The notes under the pieces are model-generated. The model saw only the letters and a list, made by a program, of their open reading frames with translations. It did not search any database and was not told where the DNA came from. The position numbers were made by a program, and so were the translations under genes. A stretch of 64,000 nucleotides of DNA, taken from assembly GCA_035765775.1 (NCBI GenBank), contig DASTWV010000043.1, positions 124,001 to 188,000 on the forward strand, read 5' to 3'. Shown piece by piece: positions 49,948 through 62,558 of this stretch. This DNA is from Actinomycetota bacterium (GTDB taxonomy: Bacteria > Actinomycetota > CADDZG01 > JAHWKV01 > JAOPZY01). The stretch's first letter is position 1. Every line of letters starts with the position of its first letter.

Positions 49948-49990
49948 GGAGCGACGGAGCTTCGAACCCCGGACGTCTTCCGTGCGAGGG
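49948..49990 (-). other. tRNA-Val-like 3' fragment (possible att scar, copy A)
   Basis: On the minus strand this reads like the 3' half of a tRNA: an anticodon-stem end CGCACGGAAGA, a T-loop GGGGTTCGAAGC and an acceptor-type CGCTCC. The D-arm and 5' acceptor are missing. Two similar fragments lie at 60.2 and 60.9 kb. Confidence 0.45.
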
Positions 49991-50051
49991 AATTCCCTCC
50001 CTGCCTCCATCGTGGGAACCGTGAACTGTGACTGATCACTTCTACACTGTA

Positions 50052-52827: not shown

Positions 52828-53190
52828 CTACGACGCCAGCAAATCGTTGTTGGCCTTCTCCACCTCCTTTCGCTCAGCCCCATCCTTGCCGGTTTCGTAC
52901 AGCTGCGCCATGGAGGCTTGGGACAGGTAGCGGCAATCGCCGACGGCCCACTCGTCGTGGATCTCCAGCAACACTGAACCCGCCAGGCGCAGCACCGCGG
53001 CCTCGTTGGGGAAGATGCCGACGACATCGCTGCGGCGCTTGATCTCCTTGTTCACCCGCTCGAGGGGGTTCGTCGACCACAACTTCTTCCAGTGAGCGGC
53101 GGGGAAGGCGGCGAAGGCGAGCAGCTCCTCTTTGTGCTCGGCTTCGTGGTGGGACCGCGGCCCGGCCCGTGTCCCTAAGTCCTCTCCGGT
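52828..53190 (-). pseudogene. IS256-family (Mutator) transposase C-terminal remnant
   Basis: AAFPAAHWKKLWSTNPLERV, NKEIKRRSDVVGIFPNEAAV and LRLAGSVLLEIHDEW are the C-terminal signature of IS256/Mutator transposases. The DDE catalytic part is missing; only the last ~110 residues remain. Confidence 0.8.
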
Positions 53191-53210: not shown

Positions 53211-55079
53211 TCAGCCATTGGCGTCGCCGCGCTTCGCATACGCCTTTAGGATCCGCGCGGTATCTGTGCCGTCGATGAAACAGAGAAGAGTTGGACGATC
53301 CTTGGGCGCATAGGCCTGCGCGGTGGCTCGAACCCTTGAGTGCACCGAGGAATCAATCTTGCCATTGAACTGCACGACAAACAGCTCAGCAGGTTCGGCA
53401 AATAGCCGGAGATCCTGGTCACCCCTCTTACCAAGATCTCTCGGATACATCGTGTTCCGCCTGGTGCCTGGTCCCTTGAGAAGAAATGCAGCTGTGACAC
53501 GCCTGCCGCGGTACCTGAGTTGAGTCGAGAAGACATCCGAGCGTTCGCCGCCCCAGTCCTTATGTTCGAAGTTCTCGCCAAGAATCTCCCGGAAACGCTC
53601 CTTGACACGGGACTCAGGTACGCTAAGAAGGCCACCGACAAGTTCGCTTGCTACTTCCCGCGCCGGAACGTCGGTCACTCTGCTGAAACTATCGATATCG
53701 TCAACATAGATGACTTTAAGGGCTCCCGCATCGGTCTCAGCACGAAGCGCTCTCAACCCCTGTCCCGTAATGCGACAGCACCCATCTTCCGCAACGCAGC
53801 CGTACGTCTCCAGGTAAGGCTCGACTAGCCGCTCCGTGACAAGAAGCCGGATAAGCCCGCGAACGCGTGAGAGAGACACGCCCCAAATATCCGTACATCC
53901 CGGAATGTCGAGTTGGAGCACTGTAGTCGTGGTGCCCTGCTTCATTTCGAGGCGCCTGAGGGCGGTTAATAGTTCAACGCGCAGCAATTCATCGTCGAGG
54001 TCCGTTTCGGAGAAGTTTGGCTCCCACGCCTCGGTCCGCTCCAAGTCATAGGTCCGGCCCAAGTCGTAGCGCTCCGTATCGACAAGTCCGTGGACCCAGC
54101 GGAGACCCAGCTCACGAGCCAGCTTCGATGCTGCCTCCCCTGGCTGGACCGCGGGGAGTTCTCGGAGCGCGTAGCTGAAGTGCACACGCATACGCACACT
54201 GAAAGCTCCCTGATTGGGCCGATCCGCAGGAGAAGCCTCAAACGAGTGATCCCGATAGGCCCGGGCGGCATCGGCGGACGGCTCATGGTCGATGCGGAAA
54301 CCGTTGTAAGACTCTCGGATCATCCCGAACATCTCCTGGGACACTGAACCAGGATCGGCCCCTGCGGCCTCGATTTGCGAGCCTTCGGTGATGTCTAGAC
54401 CTTGGCGCACTTCCCGCTGCCACCTGAGGTCGGACCGTCGACGTTCCACAAGGTACCGCAGGCGCGCGGCAGCCTCCTCCTGGACGCCCGCAGCCGTCTT
54501 GAGAACAGCATCCAAGTATCCGGCAAGCATTTGCGTTCGCTCGGCTACCCGTTGTTCACGGATGGCCTGGGGGTCAGCTTCCTCGCTTCGGGGCACCTCC
54601 ACGAAGCTGGTTACCGCCGAACCCTGTCGCTGGTATAGATTGGAGCTCAGTTCACTCAATCGGTTCCAATCGGCCCTATCTGCCTCCCTGTGGAGGTCGG
54701 GAGGCAGGAAGATCTCATCGATCGCCTTGAGGGATACAGCGTCTTGGCCATGATCCGGCCAGTAGTCAAGCCACTCCGCCCTACCGCAGATCTCCCATCG
54801 AAGTGAGAAGCGGACCGAGGGGACGAATGTGGTTGGCTTCTCCCCCCGCTGCCGAGGATGAGGTGCACCTTGCCCTGCCATTTCAACCGTGACCGCACCG
54901 AGCATCGGGGGCTGCCAGTAGGCCTCCAGAAGCTGTGCGACCACCGCCTCATCCGACCGATCTTTGAAGTTCTCCTCGTCTAGGCGTGCAATCTGGCCGG
55001 CGACGGGTGAGAGCAACTCTCCGACTAGCGCTGCCGAAAGCGGCTTTAAACGCCGAACGTCAGTGAAAAGTCCGGTCAT
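53211..55079 (-). CDS. Unknown protein: winged-helix middle and nuclease-like C-terminal domain
   Basis: 622 residues from ATG 55079 (the ATG two codons upstream, 55085, is alternative). N-terminus MTGLFTDVRRLKPLSAALVG; a helical middle with QEEAAARLRYLVERRRSDLR; a winged-helix-like segment at about 367-450 (VSLSRVRGLIRLLVTERLVE, CRITGQGLRALRA); and a C-terminal domain at about 490-622 with ENFEHKDWGGERSDVFST, VTAAFLLKGPGT, LGKRGDQDLRLFAEPAELFV and LLCFIDGTDTARILKAY. Acidic residues followed by a strand ending in Lys fit a restriction-endonuclease-like fold, but I could not name a family. Its ATG overlaps the integrase stop (ATGA), so the pair is translationally coupled. Confidence 0.7.
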   Translation of the reverse strand: MTGLFTDVRRLKPLSAALVGELLSPVAGQIARLDEENFKDRSDEAVVAQLLEAYWQPPMLGAVTVEMAGQGAPHPRQRGEKPTTFVPSVRFSLRWEICGRAEWLDYWPDHGQDAVSLKAIDEIFLPPDLHREADRADWNRLSELSSNLYQRQGSAVTSFVEVPRSEEADPQAIREQRVAERTQMLAGYLDAVLKTAAGVQEEAAARLRYLVERRRSDLRWQREVRQGLDITEGSQIEAAGADPGSVSQEMFGMIRESYNGFRIDHEPSADAARAYRDHSFEASPADRPNQGAFSVRMRVHFSYALRELPAVQPGEAASKLARELGLRWVHGLVDTERYDLGRTYDLERTEAWEPNFSETDLDDELLRVELLTALRRLEMKQGTTTTVLQLDIPGCTDIWGVSLSRVRGLIRLLVTERLVEPYLETYGCVAEDGCCRITGQGLRALRAETDAGALKVIYVDDIDSFSRVTDVPAREVASELVGGLLSVPESRVKERFREILGENFEHKDWGGERSDVFSTQLRYRGRRVTAAFLLKGPGTRRNTMYPRDLGKRGDQDLRLFAEPAELFVVQFNGKIDSSVHSRVRATAQAYAPKDRPTLLCFIDGTDTARILKAYAKRGDANG

Positions 55080-56016
55080 CTGCAACGGCCCAAACTCCCA
55101 GAGAAACCGCGAGCCTCGGGATCGTTGCGCGCCGTCATGTCTGCTATTGCCGCAGGCCCCGGCCGGGCGTAGCGCTGCAGCGTCTGCAGGGAGCGGTGCC
55201 GACTCTGGCCATCAGCATCACCTCCGACACCCCCGCTTCGGCGAGATGGGTCAGGGCCGAGTGGCGCAGCTGGTGCAGCGTGCGGCCGCCGGAGTAGCGA
55301 TCGAAGAGCTCCTCGGCCTGACGGTAAGACAAGCGCGCCCGGCCGAGGACGGGATCGAGGTCGGTCGCCGCCGGCGCCCGGGCGGGAACCGGCCGGAGCG
55401 ACGCCAGAAACAGGGGGCCCTCCTTGCGGTCGCGGATGACCCGGGGCAGCAGGCGGGCGGATCCGGAGGCAAAATGCACCCATTCGATGGCGCCGCCCTT
55501 AGAGACCACCCGTGCCCTCCGGTTGGGCAGGTCCACGTCGTCGACGTCCAGAGCGAGGATCTCACTGGCCCGGGCGGCGGTGTCGTAGAGCGGCCGCCAC
55601 AGCGCCTTCTCCCGCACGGGCACGTCGCGGCGGCCCCACAGGGCCTCGAGCTCGGGGAAGTCGATCGCCCGCGTTTCGTCGACGTCGACCCGCCGCCGCT
55701 CGATCGGCCCGGTCGGATCCGACACCATCCAGCCCTGGCGCCGACAGTAGCCACAGAAGCTCTTCAAGGTGGCCACGTTGCGGTTCCAGGTCGCTGGCTT
55801 GACGTTGGGGTAAGCGGTGGCCAAGAACTGCTTGAGCGTGGCGGCGTCGAGCTCCCCCGCCGGGAACGCCGAGCCGACCGCCATCTCGAGGCGGCCCAGG
55901 GTGAGGGCGTACACCCGCCGGCTTGTCCTGGCCAGCGAGCACTCGCCCAGGAAGGCGGCTGCCGCCTCGGCCAGCCCGACCGGCTCGACCGAGAACGAAA
56001 GCACCTGTGCGGCCAT
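55076..56016 (-). pseudogene. Tyrosine recombinase/integrase, frameshifted before the catalytic Tyr
   Basis: From ATG 56016: SAM-like N-terminal domain (EAAAAFLGECSLARTSRRVY), catalytic Arg in TAARASEILALDVDD, then GRTLHQLRHSALTHLAEAGV (H-x-x-R). Frame zero ends wrongly (GTAPCRRCSATPG); one base shifted it reads RHRSLQTLQRYARPGPAAIA with the catalytic Tyr and stops at 55,076. The missing base is near 55,197-55,200. If this is an assembly error the integrase is intact and is followed by ATGA coupling to the next gene. Confidence 0.8.
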
Positions 56017-56161
56017 GGGACCTCCTACTTCGCAGTAAACGTACGGGCTTCATCCTGCGGCCACGTGCCTGGCGGGAGCCGGATTTCGGGGCGACTCCCC
56101 AGTGAAACGCAGATTCACGGCTGAGCCAATCTCGCGCAAAACACTTCCTGGCAATGGCTCG

Positions 56162-56181
56162 GCCCGGATCATGATCCGGGC
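56162..56181. promoter_or_regulatory. Perfect 20-bp palindrome upstream of the DUF3644-like gene
   Basis: GCCCGGATCATGATCCGGGC is identical on both strands. It lies 145 bp after the integrase start and 121 bp before the next gene. It is long enough for a dimeric repressor operator. Confidence 0.55.
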
Positions 56182-56302
56182 TCCGGGTGGTGGGTCGCTG
56201 GGATGCAAGCGTCCCTCGACGAACGCCTTTGATCGGGCCTACGGATCGCGCTGGGTACGCCTTGGCGAGTCAAGGGTCCCCCGATGGGTCAAAATTGCCC
56301 GC

Positions 56303-57382
56303 GTGAGACTACGGCGCGAGGCAGCCATCCTGAAGGGCAAGGCGCTGTCGTCCCTACGCCGAGCTCTCGCCAGCTTCAACAGTCATGACGACGATGGTCG
56401 GGCCGCAGATGTTCTTCTTAAGCTGCAACACTCATTTGAGATGCTTCTCAAGGCTGGGTTAGTGCAGAGGCGTGTAGCGGTTTTTGATGCGCAACTCGAC
56501 CAGTCGATTGGGTTCGAGAAGTGCGTGAACTTGTCTAGGGAGCACCTGGCGGTTACCGAAGGCGAGGCAGGAACTCTACGCGCAATAGATGCGCTTCGCG
56601 ATGAAGCCCAGCACTGGTTCAACGAGGTGTCAGAAGGCCTCCTTTACGCCCACACTCGTGCGGCAGTGACCCTATTTGACGATCTCCTCCAACGGTGCTT
56701 CGGGGATCGCCTGGTGAACTACCTCCCCCATCGGGTTCTGCCGATCTCCGCCGAGGCGCCGCGTGATATCCAGTTGCTAATCGACGAGGAGTACCATCAG
56801 GTTGCCGCACTCCTTCGACCGGGACTCCGGCGAAGGCCAGAGGCGCGAGCTCGGATCCGGACATTGCTAGCGATGGAAGCACATGCTGCTGACAACGTCC
56901 GGGTCAGCCGACGCGATGTGGATCGGGTTGAGTCCGGGATTCGCAGTGGGCTGCCCCTCCAACAAGTGTTTCCGCGCCTAGGTGAGGTCGCTACCGACAT
57001 CGCAGGCGAAGGCATCAATGTCGCTGTGCGATTCGTGCGGAGCGCTTCTGAGCCTGCTGCTCCGGTGCGGTTCATCGGCCCCGATGACCCCACTGAGGCG
57101 GCCGCAGTGCGGGAGGTCGACCTCCAGCGTAAGTACCATTGGGCGCCCAGTGAACTCGCTCGCCGTCTCGGCTTAGACACGGGACGCCTCAAGGCCCTCC
57201 GATGGAAGCTCGATGTGGAGAATGATCCTGACTGCACCCACACCTTCGTGTTCGGATCGCAGAGCATCAAGCGCTTCTCGGACAATGCGTTCACTCGAAT
57301 CCGTGACGCCCTCCCTCATGCCGACGTTGATTCAGTTAGACGCGAATATCTTGCCCACTCTCGCCGCATCGACCAGGGTTAA
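56303..57382 (+). CDS. DUF3644-like protein
   Basis: 359 residues from GTG 56303; the open frame extends further upstream but that part looks non-coding. The N-terminal half matches my recollection of DUF3644: ALSSLRRALASFNSHDDDGR, VLLKLQHSFEMLLKAGLVQR, RDEAQHWFNEVSEGLLYAHT. The C-terminal half (REVDLQRKYHWAPSELARRL, LGLDTGRLKALRWKLDVEND) looks like a helix-turn-helix-like module. DUF3644 proteins are often found in defence or abortive-infection contexts, but no activity is known. Confidence 0.65.
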   Translation: MRLRREAAILKGKALSSLRRALASFNSHDDDGRAADVLLKLQHSFEMLLKAGLVQRRVAVFDAQLDQSIGFEKCVNLSREHLAVTEGEAGTLRAIDALRDEAQHWFNEVSEGLLYAHTRAAVTLFDDLLQRCFGDRLVNYLPHRVLPISAEAPRDIQLLIDEEYHQVAALLRPGLRRRPEARARIRTLLAMEAHAADNVRVSRRDVDRVESGIRSGLPLQQVFPRLGEVATDIAGEGINVAVRFVRSASEPAAPVRFIGPDDPTEAAAVREVDLQRKYHWAPSELARRLGLDTGRLKALRWKLDVENDPDCTHTFVFGSQSIKRFSDNAFTRIRDALPHADVDSVRREYLAHSRRIDQG

Positions 57383-57569
57383 TAGGCGGGTCCGCGCGCA
57401 TCGCCGCAGACTCATCCTGAACGAGCAAGGGCCGCCCGAGGAAGCCTAGCAGTAGTGTGCCCCCGACCCTGGTCCTCCGCCGTGCGTGCAAATGCCACCA
57501 AGCCGCCGGCACCAATCCACGCTTCTAGGTGCGACGATCAATGGGATCTTAGGAGGGGAGGTCGGGACG

Positions 57570-58706
57570 ATGCTCGCCGGCAGGACCGCCGTATTTCTGA
57601 GTTGCTCGGAAGCTTACAAGTTGTCCGTCGCATGTAAATTCCGGGATACTCTCGACGCGATGGGGATCAAAGGAATCATCGTCACCGAAGAGCCGAACCT
57701 AGTCGGGGTCTTCACCCTAGAAGACAAGGTCGACGCCTACCTGGACGCCTCGGACGCCTTCGTTGCGCTTTGTACGCCCGATAACACGCTATCGACTGGC
57801 GACGTGGAAACTCGACGGAACATAATCGACGAGATCCAGCGGGCGCGGTCGAGACCCCTGAGGGACAGAGTTGCCGTATTCAAATCTCAAGCCGTCAAAC
57901 TCCCCAGCAATATTCAGCCTGTCTACGAGAGACTCGACCCCGATGACCTTGCGCCCGCCCTCGAGAAGTTGCGGCTCCAAATTGAGGCATGGGACCTCCG
58001 TTCGTCCCACCCGGCCGGCCCAGCTATCCCCCGCCCAATTCACCTGAACGACCCCACGAAAGGGCTGCAGGTGGGAGAGCCGGAGCAAGCCGAGAGGAGA
58101 GTTCTTAATCTGTTCCTAGACTCTAGCAAGGATGACCAACGTGCTTATGTGGAGCGCCTTGTGGGCCTCATCACCGACGAACGGTCGAGCCAAACTGATC
58201 AATTGATTGCAGGCGCACTCCTCGAAGCCGCCTTAGGGCTGGACCCCGAGCTTATCGGCACGGAACCGATTGAGAAACTTGCGCGTAGCGACGACCCGAC
58301 GTGCCGAATAGCGGCGGTGGGAGCGCTCTGGACGCTGGCCCTCACGCTGCCTGGGAGGGTTCCTCTTGACTTAGTAGCCATCCTTTGCCGCCCAGCCGTA
58401 GAAGATTGGTATGTATGGGCCCCAGCACTGGCAACCCTTCAGGAACTTGCCCTGTCCCGGCCCGAAGCTCTCGCCATTATCGCCGAATTGACTAGCAGCG
58501 GAAACGTCGATGACCGCTACGCCGCGACGCGAGCCCTTCTCGATCTGGCGAAGGTCCGTCCAGAGATCATTCCTCCGTCCATTGTTGAGAAGCTTAAGAG
58601 GGATCGTGAGGAATCGATCCGCGAGTCCGCACGCGTCCTCGAGGCCGAAGCAGCGAGAGCCAGCGCTCACGCCAGGGATCGCGCCTATCGGCGGTTCTTC
58701 ATCTGA
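57570..58706 (+). CDS. TIR-like nucleotide-binding domain fused to HEAT-like repeats
   Basis: 378 residues; ATG 57570 has GGAGGGGAG upstream. Residues 1-140 have TIR-like order: GRTAVFLSCSEAYKLSVACK, DAYLDASDAFVALCTPDN, RNIIDEIQRARSRPLRDRVA, VKLPSNIQPVYERL. Residues 190-378 are helical repeats (HEAT/ARM-like: PTCRIAAVGALWTLALTLPG, DRYAATRALLDLAKVRPEII). TIR enzymes in anti-phage defence cut NAD or make signals; the repeats could sense a trigger. Catalytic Glu not assignable by eye. Lies 188 bp after the DUF3644-like gene, same strand. Confidence 0.65.
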   Translation: MLAGRTAVFLSCSEAYKLSVACKFRDTLDAMGIKGIIVTEEPNLVGVFTLEDKVDAYLDASDAFVALCTPDNTLSTGDVETRRNIIDEIQRARSRPLRDRVAVFKSQAVKLPSNIQPVYERLDPDDLAPALEKLRLQIEAWDLRSSHPAGPAIPRPIHLNDPTKGLQVGEPEQAERRVLNLFLDSSKDDQRAYVERLVGLITDERSSQTDQLIAGALLEAALGLDPELIGTEPIEKLARSDDPTCRIAAVGALWTLALTLPGRVPLDLVAILCRPAVEDWYVWAPALATLQELALSRPEALAIIAELTSSGNVDDRYAATRALLDLAKVRPEIIPPSIVEKLKRDREESIRESARVLEAEAARASAHARDRAYRRFFI

Positions 58707-58790: not shown

Positions 58791-59062
58791 GTGCCAGCAC
58801 CTCACCCAGCAGAGTTCCGCCAGCGAGCCATCGAGCTCGGCCGGGAGCGGGCCAAGCCCGTCGCCGAGATCGCCAAGGACTTAGGCCTCTCGAAGTCCTG
58901 TCTGCGCAACTGGATGCACCAGGCCGACATCGACGACGGCCACCGGGAGGGACTGAGCACCGACGAGCGCAAGGAGCTCGTCGCGCTGCGCCGGGAGAAC
59001 CGGGTGCTCAGGATAGAAAGGAGATCCTGGGAAAAGCCGCGGCCTTCGTCGCCAACGAGAGC
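58791..59062 (+). pseudogene. IS3 orfA (helix-turn-helix), frameshifted at the end
   Basis: From GTG 58791: HPAEFRQRAIELGRERAKPV, AEIAKDLGLSKSCLRNWMHQ and ELVALRRENRVL. One base is missing near 59,026; in the correct frame the usual EILGKAAAFVANESNYKTK end follows, with a TGA at about 59,080. Confidence 0.75.
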
Positions 59063-59079
59063 AACTACAAGACAAAGTG

Positions 59080-59956
59080 ACCTTTGCCTTCATCGAGGTG
59101 GAGAAGGCCACCTACCCTGTCGCCACCTGCTGCCGGGTGCTCGGGGTGTCCACCAGCGGTTGCTACGAATGGCGCCACGTCAGACCCACCCGTCGGCGCG
59201 TTCGGTGGACGACGCCTCGCTGACCGAGAAGATCATCGTGCACAAGAGAGCTCCCGGGGCACCTACGGAGCGCCGCGGGTGCACGCCGAGCTGGTCCTCG
59301 GCGAGGGCCTCCGGGTCGGCCGCAAGCGCATCGCCCGACTGATGGCCGCCGCAGGCATCCAAGGGATCTTCACCCGGCGGCGCAAGGGCTGCACCCGTCG
59401 CAACCCCGCTGACGCCCCAGCCGACGACCTGGTGAAGCGCGATTTCAACGCCACCGGGCAGGGCCAGCTGTGGGTGAGCGACGTGACCGAGCACCCGACC
59501 CACGAGGGCAAGGTGTACTTGGCCGTTGTGCTGGATGCCTGGAGCCGGCGGGTGGTCGGCTGGTCGATCGCCGACCATATGCGCACCGAGCTGGTCGTCG
59601 ACGCCCTGCAGATGGCCATCTGGCGGAGGCGCCCGGCGGGCCAGACCATCGTGCACTCGGACCGGGGCAGCCAGTACACCGCCTGGGCGTTCGGCCGCCG
59701 GCCGCGGGCCGCCGGGCTGCTCGGCTCGATGGGGGCGGTTGGCGACGCCCTGGACAACGCCATGGCCGAGTCGTTTTTCGGGACCCTGCAGCGCGAGCTG
59801 CTCGACCGCCGACAGTGGGCCAGCCGCAAGGAGCTGGCCCAGGCGATCTTCGACTACATCGAGGCCTTCTACAACCCCCGCCGCCACTCCTCGATCGGCA
59901 ACCTCAGCCCAGTCGAGTTCGAGGCCCTTCACTCCTACAAGCAAGACGCGGCATGA
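59080..59956 (+). pseudogene. IS3 orfB (DDE transposase), frameshifted near its N-terminus
   Basis: The DDE catalytic triad is readable: Asp in LWVSDVTEHPTHEGKVYLAV, Asp in IVHSDRGSQYTAWA, Glu in NAMAESFFGTLQRELL. The region before HKRARGTYGAPRVHAEL has changed frame around 59,185 and 59,250, so the N-terminal part is broken. Stop at 59,956. Confidence 0.8.
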
Positions 59957-60179
59957 TCACCTCAGCCAACCTGTCCGGTGAACTGGGGCAAGTTCATGAT
60001 GCTTGAGTTTTCAATGGGGGCCGCCCTGCCGTCCAAGGGGCTCGGCTACTCATCCCTTTGTTCGCCAGCCGTTCGCTGGCCGCAATGTTCGCTCGAACCG
60101 TTCGGAGTCAGCCCCGTTTGCAGATGGAAGACAAGCCGTAAATTGCGGTGTCTGTAAGCGATTAGCGCATCCTTACACT

Positions 60180-60224
60180 GTGGAGCGACGCGGATTTGAA
60201 CCCCGGACCTCTACCGTGCGAGGT
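60180..60224 (-). other. tRNA-Val-like 3' fragment (possible att scar, copy B)
   Basis: Minus strand: CGCACGGTAGAGGTCC, the T-loop GGGGTTCAAATCC and CGCTCCACA, the last shared with copy C. No 5' half is present. Confidence 0.45.
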
Positions 60225-60812: not shown

Positions 60813-61406
60813 TCCGAGATTCACGTAATCCGGCTGCGCGGTTCCTCGGCGCCTAACTGGGCGTACTCGTGTACCGATGGAGGATCGCATAGGTCCTTAC
60901 TCCAATCATCTGGCTTATGTCTGTGGAGCGGAGGAGATTCGAACTCCCGGCCTCTTCCGTGCGGGAAAGTCTGGCGCAGTTACGAAGGGGCTCCCAGACG
61001 GCGAACTGTCTTCCTTGACCTGGGCAACCGCCTAGCCGATGGTCTCAGCGCATGCGGACGTTACCCACTGTTCACGGCCAAAAACGGCCAAATGACAACC
61101 AGAGGACGGCCACCGCCCTGCCAGCGAATTCGTCTGCTGACCAGGATGCATGTGCTCAGGGACGAACCGTGGTGAACACGGATGGGCCACGGTGCCGCCA
61201 GCGAGAGACGGGTTCTTGGCGGCCTCCGGTCCTTCCTGATCCAGCGCGTCCCGGGAGCCGGCGTCCGGAGCCGATCCGTGGGCACCAGCAAATCGGCCCG
61301 GGGCGTGTCGGCCCCGAAGCCCAACCCTAGGGCCGACCCGAGGATCCGCCCCGCCCGAGCTAGCCGAGGTATGATGGCGCCGCTTGCAAAGAATGGAGGG
61401 GTTGAG
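60812..61406. other. Intergenic stretch
   Basis: No supported gene. It contains tRNA-like fragment C (60923-60967) and a GC-rich segment (61,170-61,380) with open frames on both strands but no recognisable protein features. Confidence 0.4.
60923..60967 (-). other. tRNA-Val-like 3' fragment (possible att scar, copy C)
   Basis: Minus strand: CCCGCACGGAAGAGGCC, T-loop GGGAGTTCGAATCTCC and TCCGCTCCACAG, the best of three copies. The anticodon-stem end CACGGAAGAGG matches actinobacterial tRNA-Val. No matching 5' acceptor is seen upstream. Confidence 0.5.
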
Positions 61407-61601: not shown

Positions 61602-62558
61602 GTGCCGACCTGGAATAAACTGCTTAACGAGCTGGCAGACCAGGCTTCAGACACTGCCAAAGCGACCTGGCTGTCGCAGAAGACTCAGCAAGTACTCACT
61701 TCTATCGGACAACTAAGGGGTAATCTTAACGCAATTGTATATGCATCCGCATTTTTGCAGAAACCGCAGGCTCCTCCTCCGCTAATCAGTATCACGCACG
61801 AAGACCTTGACGGATTGATGGCCGCAGTACATGGCACGGATTCATCGAGAGGGTTGGCGCTGATCCTGCACACCCCTGGCGGTGTGACAATTGCGGCGGA
61901 AACCTTGGTTGCTTACCTGCGATCGAAGTTCACCCACATCGAGGTTATCATTCCGGCTCTTGCTATGTCTGCAGGCACGATGATGGCCCTAGCTGCCAAT
62001 TCGATTTACATGGGTCGGCAGAGTCAACTAGGGCCGATAGACCCACAAATGCCGGTTGGAGGGCGAAGTATCTCCGCCCGCGCTGTGGTTGAGCAGTTCG
62101 AGCGCGCGAAACTTGAAATCAGAGGCGATGCGTCCAAGGAGTTACCAGGCGACCTGCTTCTCGCTCATGTGTGGGCACCTATTTTGGCATCGATGGGACC
62201 GGCCCTGCTGCAGGAGGCACAAAACGCTCTCGACTACTCGGAGCGAATGGTGGCAGGTTGGCTTGCACAATACATGTTTGCGGGAACTCCCGAAGCCGAG
62301 GAGAAAGGCAAAGCCGTGGCGCATTATTTCAACGATGCCACGCAACACAAGAGTCACGGACGACGCATTGATCTGCGGGAGGCGAGGAGCCAAGGGTTGA
62401 ATGTGCACCCCTTGGAAGACAGCCAGCCACTTCAGGAATCCGTTCTTACTCTTTACCATCTAATGACAATTGCTTTCCAACAGAGCCCAGCGACGAAGGT
62501 CGTCCAGAGCAGCAGCGGGGGCGTCTGGCTTAAGAATTGGACTCCCGGCCAAGCATGA
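61602..62558 (+). CDS. ClpP-class serine protease (SDH_sah-like)
   Basis: 318 residues. LALILHTPGGVTIAAETLVA, the nucleophile Ser123 in LAMSAGTMMALAANSIYMG and QLGPIDPQMPVGG are hallmarks of the SDH_sah/ClpP-like periplasmic-type family. No signal peptide, one weak hydrophobic segment around 113-130. SDH_sah proteins also occur in defence-type loci. Visibly lower GC than the chromosome to the left. Confidence 0.85.
   Translation: MPTWNKLLNELADQASDTAKATWLSQKTQQVLTSIGQLRGNLNAIVYASAFLQKPQAPPPLISITHEDLDGLMAAVHGTDSSRGLALILHTPGGVTIAAETLVAYLRSKFTHIEVIIPALAMSAGTMMALAANSIYMGRQSQLGPIDPQMPVGGRSISARAVVEQFERAKLEIRGDASKELPGDLLLAHVWAPILASMGPALLQEAQNALDYSERMVAGWLAQYMFAGTPEAEEKGKAVAHYFNDATQHKSHGRRIDLREARSQGLNVHPLEDSQPLQESVLTLYHLMTIAFQQSPATKVVQSSSGGVWLKNWTPGQA

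Follow-up and report, generated by a model that had tools for sequence, protein, structure and literature searches.

A gene for a 622-aa protein lies directly downstream of a tyrosine integrase gene in the stretch of Actinomycetota DNA analysed here (the window, 64,000 nt), and the locus raises the question of whether the two genes form one module. An initial annotation had described them as translationally coupled, i.e. as an integrase operon that carries a nuclease for mobile defence or element maintenance. According to our analysis, the 622-aa protein is, with a probability of about 60%, a modular defence effector (a sensor, a putative winged helix and a predicted DNA nuclease) on a tRNA-bounded island rather than an integrase-coupled maintenance module; in the same reading, and with the same confidence, the neighbouring integrase gene is distinct from it, has been frame-shifted, and is not linked to it in function. 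This reading draws on homology, invariant residues, the predicted fold, the operon contexts of relatives and the anatomy of the island, from which we infer a DNA substrate, infection-triggered activation and catalytic competence.

The gene for the 622-aa protein (53211..55079, minus strand; ATG at 55079, stop ending at 53211; GC 59.7%, GC3 64.5%) is a real gene, as its length is beyond chance (about 3e-9 for an open frame of 622 codons at the local base composition) and its C-terminal part has homologues. The tyrosine-recombinase ORF upstream of it (55144..56016, minus strand; 290 aa; PF00589 E 1.3e-13) ends with a TAG at 55146-55144, 64 nt before the ATG of the 622-aa ORF and without overlap. 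An ATGA in which a stop codon lies over this ATG does exist (55076..55079, minus strand), but it ends only the frame encoding HRSLQTLQRYARPG, the continuation of the integrase that holds the catalytic Tyr and is out of frame with the remainder of the enzyme. Comparison of the frames with intact relatives from Nocardia and Streptomyces plasmids (about 40–43% identical), which run in a single frame through to the catalytic Tyr, places a one-base frame shift at 55193..55203 (minus strand). The integrase as sequenced therefore ends short of the GH/Y portion of its active site, and its coupling to the 622-aa gene exists in name only: the overlap that had been reported belongs to the shifted frame, and translational coupling is not borne out in the sequence as it stands. 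Programmed frameshifting was considered and rejected, since the site lacks a slippery heptamer and the intact relatives stay in one frame across it; without such a heptamer, a mutation or a sequence error is likelier. The 622-aa gene could have its own translation, since a TTG at 55085, in frame with the ORF, is preceded by GGGAG at a distance of 9 nt; starting from this codon, the protein may have 624 aa.

The two genes also differ in base composition (GC3 89% for the integrase versus 65% for the 622-aa gene), and a conserved integrase–nuclease module was not recovered among relatives: a tyrosine recombinase is the immediate neighbour of the gene with the C-terminal domain at none of the 78 loci compared. 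At nine loci one is found somewhere in the fetched DNA, never directly adjacent, and at two loci that represent the same element (L005 and L056) a serine recombinase is found two ORFs off. Homologues thus occur without an integrase, a role in element maintenance is not supported, and the link between integrase and nuclease-like gene is local and broken.

The mobile setting that the initial annotation had proposed, on the other hand, stands. GC content drops from about 70–72% to 55–62% between about 52.8 kb and 64.0 kb (except at the integrase and an IS3 element) and is back at about 71–74% beyond the window. A remnant of a Mutator/IS256-type transposase (52828..53165, minus strand; PF00872 E 1.2e-15 for 52828-53082, the upstream extension being assigned by eye) abuts the 3' end of the 622-aa gene. 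The divergent neighbour (56102..57382, plus strand) encodes a DUF3644 protein (E 5e-6) that matches PADLOC PDC-S19 with an E-value of 1e-151; DUF3644 belongs to the HEPN family (PMC3710099). It is followed by a gene for a TIR (CAP12/Pycsar type) and HEAT-like protein (57486..58706, plus strand; PF10137 E 4e-6) and by an IS3-type transposase gene with rve and HTH_21 domains (58791..59956, plus strand). The 622-aa, DUF3644 and TIR genes are alike in composition (GC about 60%, GC3 about 65%). The right part of the island includes a gene for an SDH-type ClpP-like serine protease (61602-62558; PF01972 E 2.3e-19; GC 55%).

A tRNA-Ala(CGC) gene is located 612 bp past the window (64612-64685; L128:612-685), and three degenerate copies of its 3' end, all on the minus strand, suggest several successive insertions. 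An att-like copy at 49948..49992 (93% over 45 nt) marks the left island boundary, a second one (60174..60223; 94% over 50 nt) lies within a 230-nt repeat, and the third (60921..60963) is 86% identical to the own tRNA, and its segment 60923-60963 (41 nt) is 100% identical to the corresponding tRNA-Ala in G001, a genome of the same family. The two copies of the 230-nt repeat (59993-60223 and 64426-64655) suggest related right ends. G001 has the orthologous tRNA-Ala with the same right flank. An empty left junction was sought there and not found, the site being occupied by an unrelated integrative element (L174, 9901-14076) that starts directly at the tRNA and contains genes for a 405-aa integrase and for excisionase-like, replication-type and FtsK-like proteins (names assigned by eye). 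Different elements at the same tRNA-Ala in both genomes make this tRNA gene an insertion hotspot. The features of a tRNA-bounded island (direct repeats of the tRNA 3' end, a shift in composition and host synteny beyond) are all present, and the 622-aa gene arrived on this island.

Searches of Pfam, NCBIfam, PHROGs and the PDB sequences with the whole 622-aa protein were negative, PADLOC gave a weak match, and no full-length relative was found in about 400 genomes of the same phylum, plasmids, phages and IMG/VR. Its C-terminal part, residues 457-616 (53232..53711, minus strand), belongs to an un-named family and resembles a PD-(D/E)XK domain, as judged by homologues, invariant residues and a structural model. 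Using tblastn, this segment matched one Gordonia plasmid, one Rhodococcus plasmid and one faecal contig, and five starting sequences led to 74 loci from more than 10 phyla in the genome collection (78 loci in all were used for context counts). Most family proteins have a length of about 350 aa, of which the N-domain takes up about 185 aa. Our searches of Pfam, NCBIfam, PHROGs and PADLOC gave no match for the domain, 64 family members had no convincing match to Pfam and PADLOC, and sequence searches of the PDB were negative.

Across 66 sequences of this family (referred to as KDWGGE/GDQ), 13 columns are invariant and several more are kept in all but one sequence. The invariant residues that look catalytic are E489 (motif I Glu), D508, E512, D515 (motif II Asp), K535 (motif III Lys), D554, Q555 and R558; the segments AAFLLKG (530), GDQ (553) and IDGTD (602), which had been singled out as hints of a nuclease, are all present in the protein. 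Motif III of PD-(D/E)XK nucleases is by textbook (D/E/Q)xK. Two positions before K535, where the motif III acid is expected, 64 of the 66 sequences have L, A, I or V and the other two have Q; E512 may stand in for the missing acid. Column 571 is His in 61 of 66 relatives and is not His in the 622-aa protein, which has Phe at the His of QHCH. In a tree of the domain, the copy from the 622-aa protein is on a long branch without a supported position. Matches of the domain to Windbeutel/ERp29 were at chance level and were discarded. We also observed a distant variant of the domain at the start of a 451-aa protein (L127:418-1770, minus strand), with E..D..K and Q..R kept and GDQ as HQF; its gene adjoins an HExxH-type gene and another short gene, and a close relative is found on a Paenibacillus plasmid.

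AlphaFold2 modelled a family protein (locus L032) with a pLDDT of 93.4, and in the model of the 622-aa protein the C-terminal domain has a pLDDT of about 78–97 and the N-terminus is unusable. The modelled domain consists of a helix (with E489), two strands, a helix (GDQ..R), a strand, a helix, a strand (IDG) and a helix, with D515 starting the first strand and K535 ending the second. Mrr-type PD-(D/E)XK domains have the same order of elements. Using Foldseek, no match at E<=0.001 was found for these models; ranks 2–4 in the viral library had probabilities of 0.99–1.00 over 144–154 columns (E 0.009–0.04; query location unreported), and two of these three are phage proteins named restriction endonuclease. 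Against the PDB, the model of the 622-aa protein gave weak matches including EcoT38I (probability 0.41) and Avs4 (probability 0.44, 4.6 A over 141 columns; query location unreported for both). Fold matches to lysyl-tRNA synthetase and an ABC transporter were disregarded for their low TM-scores. Mrr_cat (PF04471) did not match above the model cut-off, and profile–profile comparison of the domain with Mrr and PDC-S54 nucleases was not significant; since Mrr and PDC-S54, both real PD-(D/E)XK nucleases, score no better against each other, this comparison has no power here. Taken together, the model is suggestive of a Mrr-like PD-(D/E)XK fold. The restriction-endonuclease fold proposed at the outset is thus upheld as a nuclease-like domain with matches up to probability 0.99–1.0, none of which reaches E<=0.001.

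Residues 21-230 of the protein (54390..55019, minus strand) form a module with remote homology to the N-terminus of PDC-S54, candidate defence nucleases in PADLOC. The PADLOC match is weak and covers residues 29-230 only (E 0.0074); an HMM of the PDC-S54 module made with the 622-aa protein left out gave a co-linear match of 17.0 bits, the top score among 2000 shuffles being 9.4. In the PDC-S54 members compared (from the same phylum and from plasmids), the N-module combines a part rich in strands with a G-x-x-E-L-x-x-x-x-P segment and a long helical hairpin that terminates in RR, and is followed by a classical PD-(D/E)XK end (GKTD...ECKFW). On two plasmids (L153:1474-2079 and L156:1435-2040) a PDC-S54-type N-module forms a protein of its own (201 aa), encoded immediately upstream of a DEAD/DEAH helicase gene; in L156, its gene also adjoins two TIR genes and a caspase gene. 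No relative was detected for residues 231-361 of the 622-aa protein (53997..54389, minus strand; model pLDDT <50). The winged helix that had been placed ahead of the nuclease-like domain can be kept as a putative one (residues 362-447; 53739..53996, minus strand), by sequence pattern only and with a model pLDDT of about 45–75. Five related proteins of 293–329 aa (L068, L069, L071, L073 and L074) have an HTH-like N-terminus ahead of the same C-terminal domain.

The operon partners of relatives support the link to defence. Neighbours were clustered at the 78 loci and a domain scan was run on a chosen set of them; a recognisable defence partner is found at at least 20 of the 78 loci, in part through homology to a scanned neighbour. 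In actinomycetes, a Ser/Thr kinase gene is found just upstream of the family gene at nine loci, usually with a gene for a 1030-aa protein before the kinase. In alphaproteobacteria, genes for a type III-type methylase, the family protein and a UvrD-like helicase make up an operon at five loci (L008, L010, L021, L026 and L029). Other operons with a family gene include a GajA-GajB pair at a gap of 3 nt (L054, single example), SIR2 and HerA (L004, single example), a Dsr1-like gene (L052) and Eco57I-type methylases (L024 and L069). Since relatives of its C-terminal domain lie inside many known anti-phage systems, the 622-aa protein probably serves as an enzyme of defence and does not belong to an integrase module. 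The protein of about 1030 aa has no Pfam match (L034:2970-6062; similar ones in L014–L017, L019, L020 and L025) and is encoded upstream of the kinase and KDWGGE genes; these three genes possibly form a defence operon in actinomycetes.

If the protein is a defence effector, it would have been brought in alongside the HEPN and TIR defence genes when the island inserted at tRNA-Ala(CGC), and would act against a phage or another element, as a single protein or assisted by the island. The PDC-S54-like N-module would serve as sensor or adaptor. Contact with DNA would be made through the putative winged helix, and the Mrr-like PD-(D/E)XK domain would cut the DNA via E489, D515 and K535, with E512 and the invariant D554-Q555/R558 helix assisting. 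The alternative of an integrase operon, with the nuclease made from the integrase mRNA to maintain or defend the element, would explain why the two genes share a strand at so short a distance, the ATGA of the shifted frame and the att-like repeats. We regard it as quite improbable given an integrase broken before its catalytic Tyr and sharply unlike the 622-aa gene in composition, the lack of any homologue paired with a tyrosine integrase, and a position in mid-island, whereas the tRNA-Ala element of the relative has its integrase right at the tRNA.

The protein could instead be a transcription regulator or a DNA-binding accessory of the island, i.e. a winged helix with a nuclease fold whose activity is lost, as the hydrophobic residue at the motif III acid position and the loss of the near-invariant His might indicate. 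This is improbable, as the strict retention of E489, E512, D515, K535, D554, Q555 and R558, both across a divergent family and in the 622-aa protein, points to selection for catalysis. The protein might also be an active nuclease with this fold but another target (RNA, or host DNA in an abortive response), or a subunit in need of a helicase such as UvrD or GajB. Relatives often lie beside UvrD-like helicases or ATPases, most have an OB-like N-domain (weak OB fold matches), and the HEPN and TIR proteins encoded nearby are effectors of the abortive type, all of which favour these options; no helicase gene adjoins the 622-aa gene, and we find them unlikely for this protein. A modular defence effector is thus the reading that we prefer.

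More tentatively, the KDWGGE/GDQ domain as a whole may be an undescribed plug-in nuclease, used as an extra effector in unrelated systems (Gabija, type III-like RM, kinase, SIR2-HerA and Eco57I-type), where an OB-, HTH- or PDC-S54-like N-domain would set the partner or trigger and the 622-aa protein would be the largest, single-chain form. In any case, our searches of Pfam, NCBIfam, PHROGs and PADLOC recovered no entry for a nuclease-like family that is found in more than 10 phyla and repeatedly in operons with defence genes. Should the family prove active, systems considered complete, e.g. Gabija, would gain a further effector or a supplementary cleavage step. The 622-aa protein illustrates how sensor modules and nuclease ends recombine.

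Compared with known systems, the 622-aa protein shares with Mrr-type enzymes (PF04471) the plan of a winged helix and a C-terminal nuclease and a similar order of secondary structures, and the IDG segment and helix I are in register in weak, non-significant profile matches. It differs from them in having KDWGGExxD in place of GxxGDxGxD and L-x-K or A-x-K in place of Q-x-K, and in the invariant GDQ..R helix. The C-terminal 160 residues are homologous to those of the family members of about 350 aa (31–47% identical, with the same invariant residues), whose N-terminal part is either OB-like (about 185 aa) or short and HTH-like instead of a PDC-S54-like module. PDC-S54 proteins, in turn, have an N-module remotely homologous to residues 21-230 and, like the 622-aa protein, a nuclease-like end after it, but they are shorter (about 410 aa versus 622 aa) and their C-terminal nuclease is of another family; the 622-aa protein adds a middle part of 130 aa and the putative winged helix.
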